Positions 11,377 to 13,219 of a stretch of 32,534 bases of DNA are shown here, in pieces. Below the pieces are notes generated by a model. The model was not told the origin of the DNA and ran no database searches. It saw only the letters and a list, made by a program, of their open reading frames with translations. Each line of letters opens with the position of its first letter. Position 1 is the first letter of the stretch. The position numbers and the translations under genes were made by a program. This DNA comes from Halorubrum distributum JCM 10118 (GTDB taxonomy: Archaea; Halobacteriota; Halobacteria; Halobacteriales; Haloferacaceae). The stretch is from contig NZ_AOJN01000051.1 in assembly GCF_000337335.1 (NCBI RefSeq), forward strand, positions 25,833 to 58,366, given 5' to 3'.

Positions 11377-12177
11377 ATGAGCGACCACGCGGGCGCCGAG
11401 CCGGGCGACGGGGCGGACGCCGAGCCGGGCGACGGGGCGGACGCCGAGCCGGGCGACAGTCCCATCTTCGACGCGGCCGATGAGGTGGACCCGGAAGAGC
11501 GCCTCAAGCGCCAGCGGGACGACCTCCGGCTGTTGAACCAGGTGATGCGCCACGACATCCGGAACGACCTCCAGCTCGTCGGCGCGTACGCCGAGCTGCT
11601 CGACGACCACGTCGACGAGGAGGGGAAGGAGTACCTGGACGTGATCAAGCGCAACACCCAGAGCGCCGTCTCGCTCACCACCACGGTCCGCGACCTCGCC
11701 GAGGTGATGCTCCGCGAGGACGCCGAGCCGAGCCGCGTCGCGCTCGATCGGGTCCTCTCCCAGCAGGTCGAAGAGATCCGGTCGGGGTACTCGGAGGCCG
11801 TCTTCACGGTCGAGGGGTCGTACCCCGAGGCGGAGGTCGTCGGCGACGAGATGCTGAGTTCCGTGTTCCGGAACCTCCTGCGGAACGCGGTCCAGCACAA
11901 CGACGAGACCCCGCCGAAGGTGACCGTATCCGCGACCGTCGAGGAGGCCGAGGGCGTCGCCGAGGTGCGGATCGCCGACAACGGACCGGGGATCCCCGAA
12001 GACCAGCGCGACGAGGTGTTCGGCAAAGGCGAGAAGGGGCTCGACAGCCCGGGCGCCGGGATCGGGCTCTACCTGGTCCGGTCGCTCGTCGAGATCTACG
12101 GTGGCGACGTGTGGGTCGAGGACAACGAGCCGAAGGGCGCGGTCTTCGTCGTCAGGCTCCCGCTCTGTGAGGGGTAA
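11377..12177 (+). CDS. Sensor-less soluble histidine kinase
   Basis: 266 residues without a membrane segment, PAS or GAF domain. A repetitive N-terminus (GAEPGDGADAEPGDGADAEPG) leads into a charged helix and the HisKA-type dimerisation helix with H59 in MRHDIRND. The GHKL ATPase domain has the N-box (LLRNAVQHND, N170), the G1 box IADNGPGIP (D201) and the G2 box GAGIGLYLV (226-234). The haloarchaeal HDIRN H-box belongs to a large expanded family. There is no response regulator beside it, so its partner is elsewhere, and any sensing must come from a protein partner. The stop at 12177 marks the start of the gene-free stretch. Confidence 0.92.
   Translation: MSDHAGAEPGDGADAEPGDGADAEPGDSPIFDAADEVDPEERLKRQRDDLRLLNQVMRHDIRNDLQLVGAYAELLDDHVDEEGKEYLDVIKRNTQSAVSLTTTVRDLAEVMLREDAEPSRVALDRVLSQQVEEIRSGYSEAVFTVEGSYPEAEVVGDEMLSSVFRNLLRNAVQHNDETPPKVTVSATVEEAEGVAEVRIADNGPGIPEDQRDEVFGKGEKGLDSPGAGIGLYLVRSLVEIYGGDVWVEDNEPKGAVFVVRLPLCEG
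11395..11457 (+). repeat. 24-bp tandem repeat inside the histidine kinase gene
   Basis: Units begin gccgagccgggcgac at 11395, 11419 and 11443: two full and one partial copy, identical by eye. Each full copy encodes AEPGDGAD. Because the unit is a multiple of three, copy-number change by slippage keeps the frame. Confidence 0.9.
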
Positions 12178-12201
12178 CACTTACAGACGCGACGGCGGTC
12201 G

Positions 12202-12520
12202 CTTATAACGAACAACACGGTGGCGCGTGCCTGCGAGGCCGCCCCGCGGCCGAGCCGCGAGGGACCGAAGGTCCCTCTGGAAGCCGGCGCGTAGCGCCGG
12301 CGACAGCACCGCGCGAGGGAGTCAGTCGCCGGAGCGAAGCGACGGCGACTGACGAGGCTGGGGAGGTGTGAGGTGCGGTTGCGGTGCGGGGCGGGTGGGA
12401 ATCAAAGGGGCAGCCGCGAGGCGGGCGCAGCCGACGTAAGGACCACAACAAGGGAGCGAACGAAGTGAGCGACCGAGTGAGGACCGCAGCAGGCGTGCGC
12501 CCGCCTCGCGGCTGGGGCTT
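12202..12520 (+). other. Hairpin-rich noncoding element, candidate structured RNA or dispersed repeat
   Basis: No credible gene lies between 12178 and 12734. Within it, five perfect stems follow each other: GGCCGC/GCGGCC (12237-12251), GAGGGACC/GGTCCCTC with a GAA loop (12259-12277), GCCGGCGC/GCGCCGGC with a GTA loop (12283-12301), GTCAGTCGCCG/CGGCGACTGAC (12321-12353) and a 19-bp stem (12411-12514). A TATA-like cttataac at 12202-12209 sits about 25-30 bp before the first stem, as expected for a transcribed RNA. Strand is given by that box and is provisional. It could instead be a nonautonomous dispersed repeat without a transcript. SRP and RNase P RNA signatures are absent. Confidence 0.5.
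12411..12514. repeat. Perfect 19-bp inverted repeat with 66-nt loop
   Basis: The arms are 12411-12429 and 12496-12514; the right arm reads TGCGCCCGCCTCGCGGCTG and the left is its exact reverse complement. Beyond three mismatched positions (GGG against CCC), four more bases (AAAG/CTTT) pair, so the stem could reach 12404-12521. The loop holds a purine-rich run around gagcgaacgaagtgagcgac (12454-12473). Confidence 0.9.
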
Positions 12521-12678
12521 TGGCGGCGTTCACCGCCGATCCGCCGGGACCTGTTTATAAACAAGCGACTGGATCTTTGGAGGGATTCACCGCCGAGTCA
12601 CTGACAACGAATTATCAGCGAGCAGCTGGAGATTCGGAACTCGTCTTTGCGTCGTTGATCGCTTATATATGCTTGATA
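12508..12678. repeat. Degenerate 57-bp tandem repeats with TATA-like boxes
   Basis: Copies start at 12508, 12565 and 12622, an exact 57-bp period. The first two share the opening gcgrctgg, then ctttgg, then ttcaccgccga, at about 38 of 57 positions; the third keeps the opening and drifts afterwards. Each unit ends in an AT-rich block: gtttataaac (12553-12562), aattatcag (12610-12618) and cttatatat (12662-12670). Another box, cttataaat, follows at 12696-12704. The array overlaps the right arm of the large inverted repeat, so the two structures are joined. The units are not separated by unique spacers, so this is not a CRISPR array. Confidence 0.7.
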
Positions 12679-12734
12679 CCAGTGCCCGAGATCGCCTTAT
12701 AAATGCCGTCTCCCGACGTGTTCGGCGAACCGAG

Positions 12735-13142
12735 TTATTCGTCGTACTCCATCGCGACCGAGTTGATACAAAAGCGCTTGCCGGTCGGCTCGGGGCCGTC
12801 GTCGAACACGTGGCCGAGGTGCGAGTCGCAGTTCGCACACCGGACCTCGGTGCGGCGCATCCCGTGGCTGGTGTCCACCGTCGTGGTCACCGACTCCTCC
12901 TCGGCGGCGTAGAAGGCGGGCCACCCGCAGCCGGACTCGTACTTCGTCTCGGCCTCGAAGAGAACGGTGCCACAGGCCCGACAGCGGTACTCCCCGTCGT
13001 CGGGGTGGTGGTCGACGTACTCGCCGGAGAACTTCGCCTCCGTGCCGCTCTCGCGCAGCACGCGGTACTCCTCCTCGGAGAGCCGCTCGCGCCACTCCTC
13101 GTCGGTCAGCTCGCTCGGGTCGCGCTCGTCAGTCTCGCTCAT
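12735..13142 (-). CDS. msrB: Peptide-methionine (R)-S-oxide reductase
   Basis: 135 residues. It reduces R-methionine sulfoxide in proteins with electrons from thioredoxin. The zinc site is complete (C54/C57 in CRAC, C102/C105 in CANC). The catalytic cysteine is C125 in RFCINSVAM, and GCGWPAF (C72, W74) supplies the substrate pocket and a possible resolving cysteine. The start at 13142 is chosen because the upstream part of the open frame to 13217 is basic and overlaps the promoter region of the divergent CDSGH gene. A GTTCGGCGAAC palindrome at 12720-12730 lies just past the stop, with the repeat array beyond. Confidence 0.96.
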   Translation of the reverse strand: MSETDERDPSELTDEEWRERLSEEEYRVLRESGTEAKFSGEYVDHHPDDGEYRCRACGTVLFEAETKYESGCGWPAFYAAEEESVTTTVDTSHGMRRTEVRCANCDSHLGHVFDDGPEPTGKRFCINSVAMEYDE

Positions 13143-13219
13143 ACCACCGATACGGGTCCCACGGGCAAGGGGGTTGCGGCGGTCACAAGCCGTATTCGGG
13201 TGGGAGCCGAATCGCACTC

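Follow-up and report, generated by a model that had tools for sequence, protein, structure and literature searches.

REP/BIME repeats with RAYT transposases are dispersed intergenic palindromes whose presumed mobile form is a folded single strand. In Haloquadratum walsbyi, the PATEs (palindrome-associated transposable elements) and SMR-As are transposase-free repeats that occur in large numbers, contain palindromes and show no target duplications; PATEs lack terminal inverted repeats and carry their palindromes close to the ends, SMR-As are small mobile repeats nested in the palindromes of larger repeats, and the term 'SwitchRepeats' is used where one position holds repeats that differ in kind or in orientation (accessible portion of PMC3119063). 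According to excerpts of two further reports, halovirus HF2, from the viruses of Halorubrum, carries 58-bp intergenic repeats with AT-rich promoter boxes (PMC8707807), and a halite metatranscriptome yielded 22 conserved noncoding RNAs of unknown function from Halobacteria (PMC7002113).

The element described here lies in a 32,534-nt stretch of DNA from Halorubrum distributum JCM 10118, which is referred to below as the window. Like REP/BIME, it consists of dispersed palindromes in gaps between genes, but REP units are far shorter. With PATEs it shares a haloarchaeal host, the lack of a transposase, high copy number, palindromes and nested small repeats (accessible portion of PMC3119063); it is likewise too short for a transposase, and no gene is called in 12177-12734. 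Unlike PATEs, as far as the accessible text describes them, it has a covarying RNA fold, none being described there for PATEs, and palindromes resembling IS605-type ends were not found in the one genome compared (PMC3119063); because such ends were not found in that genome, PATE membership is not claimed. A module nested within the element resembles SMR-As in being small, transposase-free and inserted in the palindromes of a larger repeat, but it comprises about 49 bp with two separate hairpins, whereas SMR-As, in the same excerpts, measure about 110 bp and have prominent terminal inverted repeats (PMC3119063).

The element also resembles the BOX repeats of Streptococcus pneumoniae, as presented in parts of PMC3049150, which are modular and intergenic, vary in module number and have a predicted RNA fold; in both cases there are no clear empty sites and mobility is inferred only (PMC3049150). 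This likeness concerns only how the repeats work and is silent on common descent, and BOX differs in being bacterial, in having other modules and in that its repeated module is internal, whereas here 57-bp units form a tail (PMC3049150). The same units, with their TATA words, recall the HF2 repeats in length, but the motifs quoted in the accessible part of PMC8707807 are, by eye only, unlike the tail units, and HF2 was rejected as the source of the tail. No Rfam 15 family reached its gathering score in the window, nor did any in 10 loci taken from other haloarchaea; below the cut-offs, CRISPR-DR20 (25.9 bits, cut-off 42, E 0.0035; the nested hairpin at 12273-12306, - strand) and Gammaretro_CES (18.4 bits, cut-off 93) were taken as chance matches. 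No description of the repeat, nor any account under its motif strings, was found in the open-access papers searched, subscription papers and preprints being mostly outside this scope.

Organization of the locus

The initial annotation had drawn attention to five perfect hairpins in 12202-12520, preceded by a TATA-like box, and had regarded their density as unusual. All five stems are present at the re-read coordinates and the box was located (Table 1). When 12215-12545 was folded as + strand RNA, the energy was -203.4 kcal/mol, compared with a mean of -164.3 kcal/mol (sd 4.8) for 100 dinucleotide shuffles, none of which was as stable (z -8.16). A stable fold results for the reverse strand as well (z -6.78), if less extreme than that of the + strand, and this counts against a reading as + strand RNA. 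The codon-usage gene caller picks nothing between the two flanking genes; among the mechanically listed ORFs, three (80-83 aa) overlap the hairpin stretch or its tail, and a 281-aa mechanical frame opposite the SelR gene begins in the tail. No tRNA was found and, as had been noted earlier, neither a transposase nor a target-site duplication is visible.

One correction to the earlier description concerns the hairpins themselves, which are real but do not form one unit: two of them (about 12255-12303) constitute the separate nested module. The proposed extent covers most of the unit, and degenerate tail repeats reach about 12705. Helices P1 and P2 lie near the 5' end of the core and P4 near its 3' end. 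The outer arms of P4 are formed by CAAAGGGGCAGCC pairing with GGCTGGGGCTTTG. Across copies, the number of 57-bp tail units varies; the start of a unit resembles the P4 3' arm and its end is frequently TTTATAA. A TATA-like word starts 15-26 nt upstream of GGCGCG in 33 of 56 parsed copies, occurs elsewhere within 60 nt in four, and is absent in 19. A separate 24-bp tandem repeat (2.9 copies, 97% matches) was observed at 11389-11457 within the histidine kinase gene.

Table 1. Positions of features of the element and its neighbours in the window, and of related copies in other loci (locus named)
Feature	Position	Strand	Remarks
Histidine kinase gene (HATPase_c, HisKA)	ends 12177		neighbour of the element
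TATA-like box CTTATAA	12202-12208	+	sequence
Conserved core start GGTGGCGCG	12219-12230	+	holds helix P1 5' arm (12223-12230)
Hairpin P2, 6-bp stem	12237-12251	+	sequence varies between copies
6-bp stem	12237-12242/12246-12251	+	in hairpin P2
Nested double-hairpin module	12255-12303	+	ends inferred from copies without the module
8-bp stem, loop GAA	12259-12266/12270-12277	+	inside nested module
8-bp stem, loop GTA	12283-12290/12294-12301	+	inside nested module
Helix P1 3' arm, GCAC-C-GCGC	12306-12314	+	one bulged C
Hairpin P3, 11-bp stem	12321-12353	+	hypervariable yet paired
11-bp stem	12321-12331/12343-12353	+	in hairpin P3
G-rich stretch with invariant GAGGCTGGGGAGG block	12354-12402	+	predicted mostly unpaired
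Helix P4 5' arm	12403-12429	+	
27-nt arm pair	12403-12429/12496-12522	+	89% complementary; contains long perfect stem (P4)
P4 inner rod	12430-12495	+	short variable Watson-Crick steps between conserved GA/GA, A/A loops
Helix P4 3' arm	12496-12522	+	
Tail unit 1, 57 bp	12510-12566	+	starts with 3' end of P4; ends TTTATAAACAAGC
Tail unit 2, 57 bp	12567-12623	+	degenerate
Decayed tail	12624-12705	+	more TATA-like words; outer limit uncertain, by eye
SelR-domain gene (methionine sulfoxide reductase B type; nearest named relatives in Halorubrum)	12735-13217	other strand	neighbour of the element
Inverted P4 rod, L121	4724-4974		
Inverted P4 rod, L264	3628-3922		
Inverted P4 rod, L249	8438-8654		
Inverted P4 rod, L240	15739-15973		
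Inverted P4 rod, L362	12147-12466		
cbiG-linked copy, L346	6142-6263		
cbiG-linked copy, L347	6259-6383		
cbiG-linked copy, L348	5957-6083		
cbiG-linked copy, L344	5751-5899		

Dispersal in haloarchaeal genomes

The earlier proposal left two alternatives, a structured RNA or a dispersed element, and the second is upheld by the number of copies. BLASTN of 12180-12734 against its own genome returned at least 52 matches (best 40 of 240 candidates). Alignment A1 comprises the cores of 25 out of 30 loci; L004 was excluded for an N, L007 and L012 for long inserts, L017 for a misparsed end and L020 for a missing anchor. Covariance model R1 found at least 148 matches in the genome at E ≤ 0.001 (best 150 candidates), a few entries being two readings of one copy with an inverted rod; together with the variable tail units and the location mostly in gaps between called genes, this gives a BOX-like picture. 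A relative assembled as one contig had 154 matches. In the window itself, with filters off, R1 gave one strong match of 193.2 bits, accompanied by one of 23.8 bits on the opposite strand at the same place, and nothing else above 10.3 bits.

R1 matched 48 of 59 genomes, including all 35 of the genus Halorubrum (own genome included). As per-genome counts in this genus survey derive from at most about 35 best candidates, the lowest Halorubrum counts of 7, 13 and 18 refer to the matches listed. Four genomes of three other families had 41, 45, 70 and 96 matches. For model R2, 26 sequences from several families were brought together, two short ones were dropped and the 3' half of the remaining 24 was used; the model was run on 27 genomes. 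It found 63 matches in Halorubrum kocurii, 42 in H. saccharovorum and 64 in H. alkaliphilum, and matched 18 of 19 non-Halorubrum Halobacteria: at least 110 in HArc-gm2, 26 in Halomicrococcus, 11 each in Haloarcula japonica and Halegenticoccus, eight in Natronococcus, six each in Natribaculum, Salinadaptatus and Salinibaculum, five in Haloferax prahovense, four each in Natrarchaeobius and Haloarcula salina, three in Natrialba, two each in Haloprofundus, Halolamina and Natronorubrum, and one each in Halorubellus, a Halovenus MAG and Haladaptatus, the last being weak (E 1.7e-5). R2 found no matches in Halorutilus, a nanohaloarchaeal MAG or four bacteria. Comparative analysis thus identifies the element as a member of a real, class-wide (Halobacteria) family of dispersed repeats with a predicted structured RNA.

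Of 72,556 plasmid records six match; one, from a Halorubrum, does so over 34% of the query, including part of the core, and in the other five, from other haloarchaeal genera, the match is accounted for by stretches 81-87% identical to the nested module. No phage record matched the element by blastn, and the exact motif is present in two viral contigs. The nested module (two 8-bp stems with loops GAA and GTA, about 49 bp) occurs at 11 places in the source genome, and in other copies of the element (L204-L212, L200, L202, L112) it sits at positions that vary and differ from that in the window, in both orientations. Several copies, in the source genome, in Halorubrum sp. Atlit-26R (L121) and in relatives, have the P4 rod inverted between its arms, with matches on both strands at one place (Table 1). 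In other families, the P4 module was often observed as close head-to-head inverted pairs (L293, L297, L301, L304, L309, L343, L355, L356).

Conservation of the fold

The stems carry compensatory changes, so that the structured-RNA half of the initial proposal holds as well. In alignment A2 (77 matches from 1.23 Mb), which was fitted to the model and therefore leans towards it, 96.4% of cells were paired versus 84.6% after shuffling and 26-44% after sliding, helix P1 pairs were kept in 97.8% of cells, and two-sided changes that kept the pairing were found at 45 of 57 pairs. The unfitted alignment A1 (25 cores) showed two-sided changes at 24 of 57 pairs. Hairpin P3 had 28 distinct sequences among 35 parsed copies, with pairs kept in 96.2% of cells. 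Across families, 95.7% of cells were paired versus 75.6% in shuffles, with a covariation of 0.479 versus 0.173; the number of pairs with two-sided changes was weaker here (20 versus 16.6, reached by 12 of 500 shuffles). The long single-stranded blocks are also conserved across families.

Once eight pairs of doubtful helices were left out, G.U occupied 78 cells and A.C 17, with G.U in excess in 44 copies and A.C in two; counted by pair, the ratio was 23 to 8 (p 0.011), and when only pairs below 60% Watson-Crick were dropped, the cells numbered 107 and 30, respectively. Since strand-symmetric mutation is expected to yield G.U and A.C equally, this excess favours an RNA of the + strand; G.T is tolerated in DNA too, so it does so without proving it. 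Of the two GA/GA loops in the P4 rod, one is retained in 55 of 60 copies and the other in 50 of 56; the A/A loop is retained in 52 of 63, and the intervening pairs vary. Taken together, the excess of G.U and the fixed G.A and A.A loops amid changing pairs point to a + strand RNA, as judged from aligned copies. In the several copies whose P4 rod is inverted, the G.A pattern of the RNA would be lost.

Orthologous sites and probable exchange of content

Among 39 loci with a SelR gene, 27 had a kinase gene nearby (three pairs of these being the same record from two collections). The gap between the two genes contained the element in seven of the 27 loci, the window included, and measured 17-148 bp in the other 20. 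At one locus (L094), the near-empty gap holds an apparent single tail unit some 94 bp beyond the kinase gene, as would be expected if a deletion between TATA-containing repeats had removed the core. Neither at the kinase-SelR gap nor at one other site was a clean empty site with a target duplication found. When 400 kb of contig C49 were compared with three relatives, anchors could be set for nine of 19 copies, a twentieth match being weak and left aside; the 17 resulting site-genome comparisons showed the element in the same orientation in 12, in the opposite orientation in one and absent in four, some of these with ambiguous anchors. Many copies, compensatory changes and both occupied and unoccupied orthologous sites speak for the two initial alternatives at once. 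The second correction to the earlier description is that the unoccupied sites are not clean, so that the exact ends and the insertion of the element are putative.

Flanks and cores were compared in 13 orthologous pairs from seven sites, as medians against non-orthologous sites. Upstream identity was 91 versus 54% from -160 to -80, 85 versus 50% from -80 to -35 and 72 versus 50% from -35 to 0, with four of the 13 pairs being low upstream too (45-60% in the outer segment). Within the core, the corresponding values were 59 versus 55% for P1-P2, 61 versus 64% for P3 and 82 versus 78% for the G-rich block with P4; in the tail, they were 69 versus 63% for unit 1, 66 versus 57% for tail 2 and 51 versus 48% for tail 3. 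Another comparison, of ten P3 pairs, gave 62 versus 60%, and at one site three species had three different P3 stems and P4 arms. The simplest reading of alike flanks and unlike cores would be exchange of content between copies, while repeated insertion at the same sites may be an alternative. Few P3 sequences are common to several copies inside the genome, fewer than recent conversion alone would predict, which counts against the exchange reading.

Gene neighbourhood

According to our own gene calls for 64 copies, 38 lie between tandem, 17 between convergent and six between divergent genes, and three inside a call; the gene past the tail faces the element in 41 of the 64. Divergent gaps above 250 bp are avoided (6 of 55 versus 58 of 205; p 0.008 before correction for the three tests made), and the excess in convergent gaps does not reach significance (p 0.24). 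In three Natrialbaceae-type genomes (Natribaculum, Natronococcus and Natronorubrum), cbiG and a tetrapyrrole methylase gene flank an antisense copy; Haloarcula salina has a copy adjoining cbiG (Table 1). The recurrence of cbiG-linked copies across genera suggests a putatively old site; such a site was rejected for the source genome, which has no CbiG_C match.

Discussion

The reading that we hold to be somewhat probable, on the basis of sequence comparison, is that of a non-autonomous dispersed haloarchaeal element whose conserved content would be a structured RNA read from the + strand, with contents swapped between copies. Transcription of the core would start from the TATA box or reach it by read-through out of an adjacent gene. 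A protein might bind the folded RNA at its G.A-rich rod, and the RNA might affect the processing, stability or ending of the transcripts that contain it; copies would spread rarely, and their contents would later be exchanged through recombination (gene conversion). The avoidance of divergent gaps agrees with this reading. Against it stand the absence of a TATA-like box in 19 of 56 copies, a start from the box that would fall inside the P1 5' arm, the inverted P4 rods and the failure to find a clean empty site at the two sites compared.

A PATE-like element whose fold matters in DNA rather than RNA, forming in a single strand on which an IS200/IS605-type Y1 transposase would act in trans, appears rather unlikely. 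Palindromes near both ends of the core, no observed target duplication and the lack of a transposase gene inside would agree with it. C-GNA-G triloops are very stable in DNA, and the GAA and GTA loops of the element are of this type. The nested module would be the counterpart of SMR-A repeats in PATEs (accessible portion of PMC3119063). Y1 transposases do exist in the genome, but both PF01797 matches stand beside a TnpB match, as in ordinary IS605-type elements, and no stand-alone RAYT-type Y1 transposase was found there. In addition, core, module and tail lack significant similarity to the two Y1 loci (best E 0.04), and all 15 TnpB matches are more than 2 kb away from every listed copy, so that an IS605/TnpB origin is unsupported in the source genome. 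The G.U excess would be expected of an RNA, although G.T beats A.C in DNA tolerance as well.

That the copies are genes of a trans-acting noncoding RNA, a family of about 150 each with its own promoter, is unlikely. The near-fixed distance of the TATA-like box in 33 of 56 copies, the single-stranded block and loops conserved across families and the sites common to several species fit such genes. Against them, haloarchaeal promoters have a spacing of roughly 26 nt from TATA to start (excerpts of PMC8707807), which would place the start inside the P1 5' arm, a poor fit to an RNA gene, quite apart from the copies that lack the box; moreover, some haloarchaea have 1-6 matches and others dozens, which is unusual for a needed trans RNA. 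More doubtful still would be a Halobacteria-wide RNA acting in an RNA-protein particle, whose copies, as many as about 150 in one genome, it would itself renew through RNA-guided or RNA-templated exchange at fixed sites where P2 and P3 are constantly rewritten.

We regard as very improbable that template switching between arms keeps the hairpins perfect and that the fold is without function. Stems do change wholesale at the same site and are still paired, but arm correction would remove the GA/GA and A/A mismatches that are retained between perfect pairs; loops fixed between varying pairs argue against a mutational process alone, as do the inequality of G.U and A.C and the long single-stranded blocks conserved across families. 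High GC generally favours hairpins, but a chance GC-rich intergenic region is ruled out for practical purposes by the z-score of -8.16 (about -8.2) against dinucleotide shuffles and by the multicopy family with covarying stems.

If the structured-RNA element that we favour holds, Halobacteria would contain a large class of folded repeats without an Rfam entry and without a description in the open-access papers searched. At about 150 copies per genome in the two where they were counted, the family matters for genome annotation and assembly and for the mapping of transcripts. Fixed sites combined with exchanged, always-paired hairpins would let the recombination of archaeal repeats be measured directly, and the conserved G.A-rich rod offers a concrete bait for a protein that would read it.
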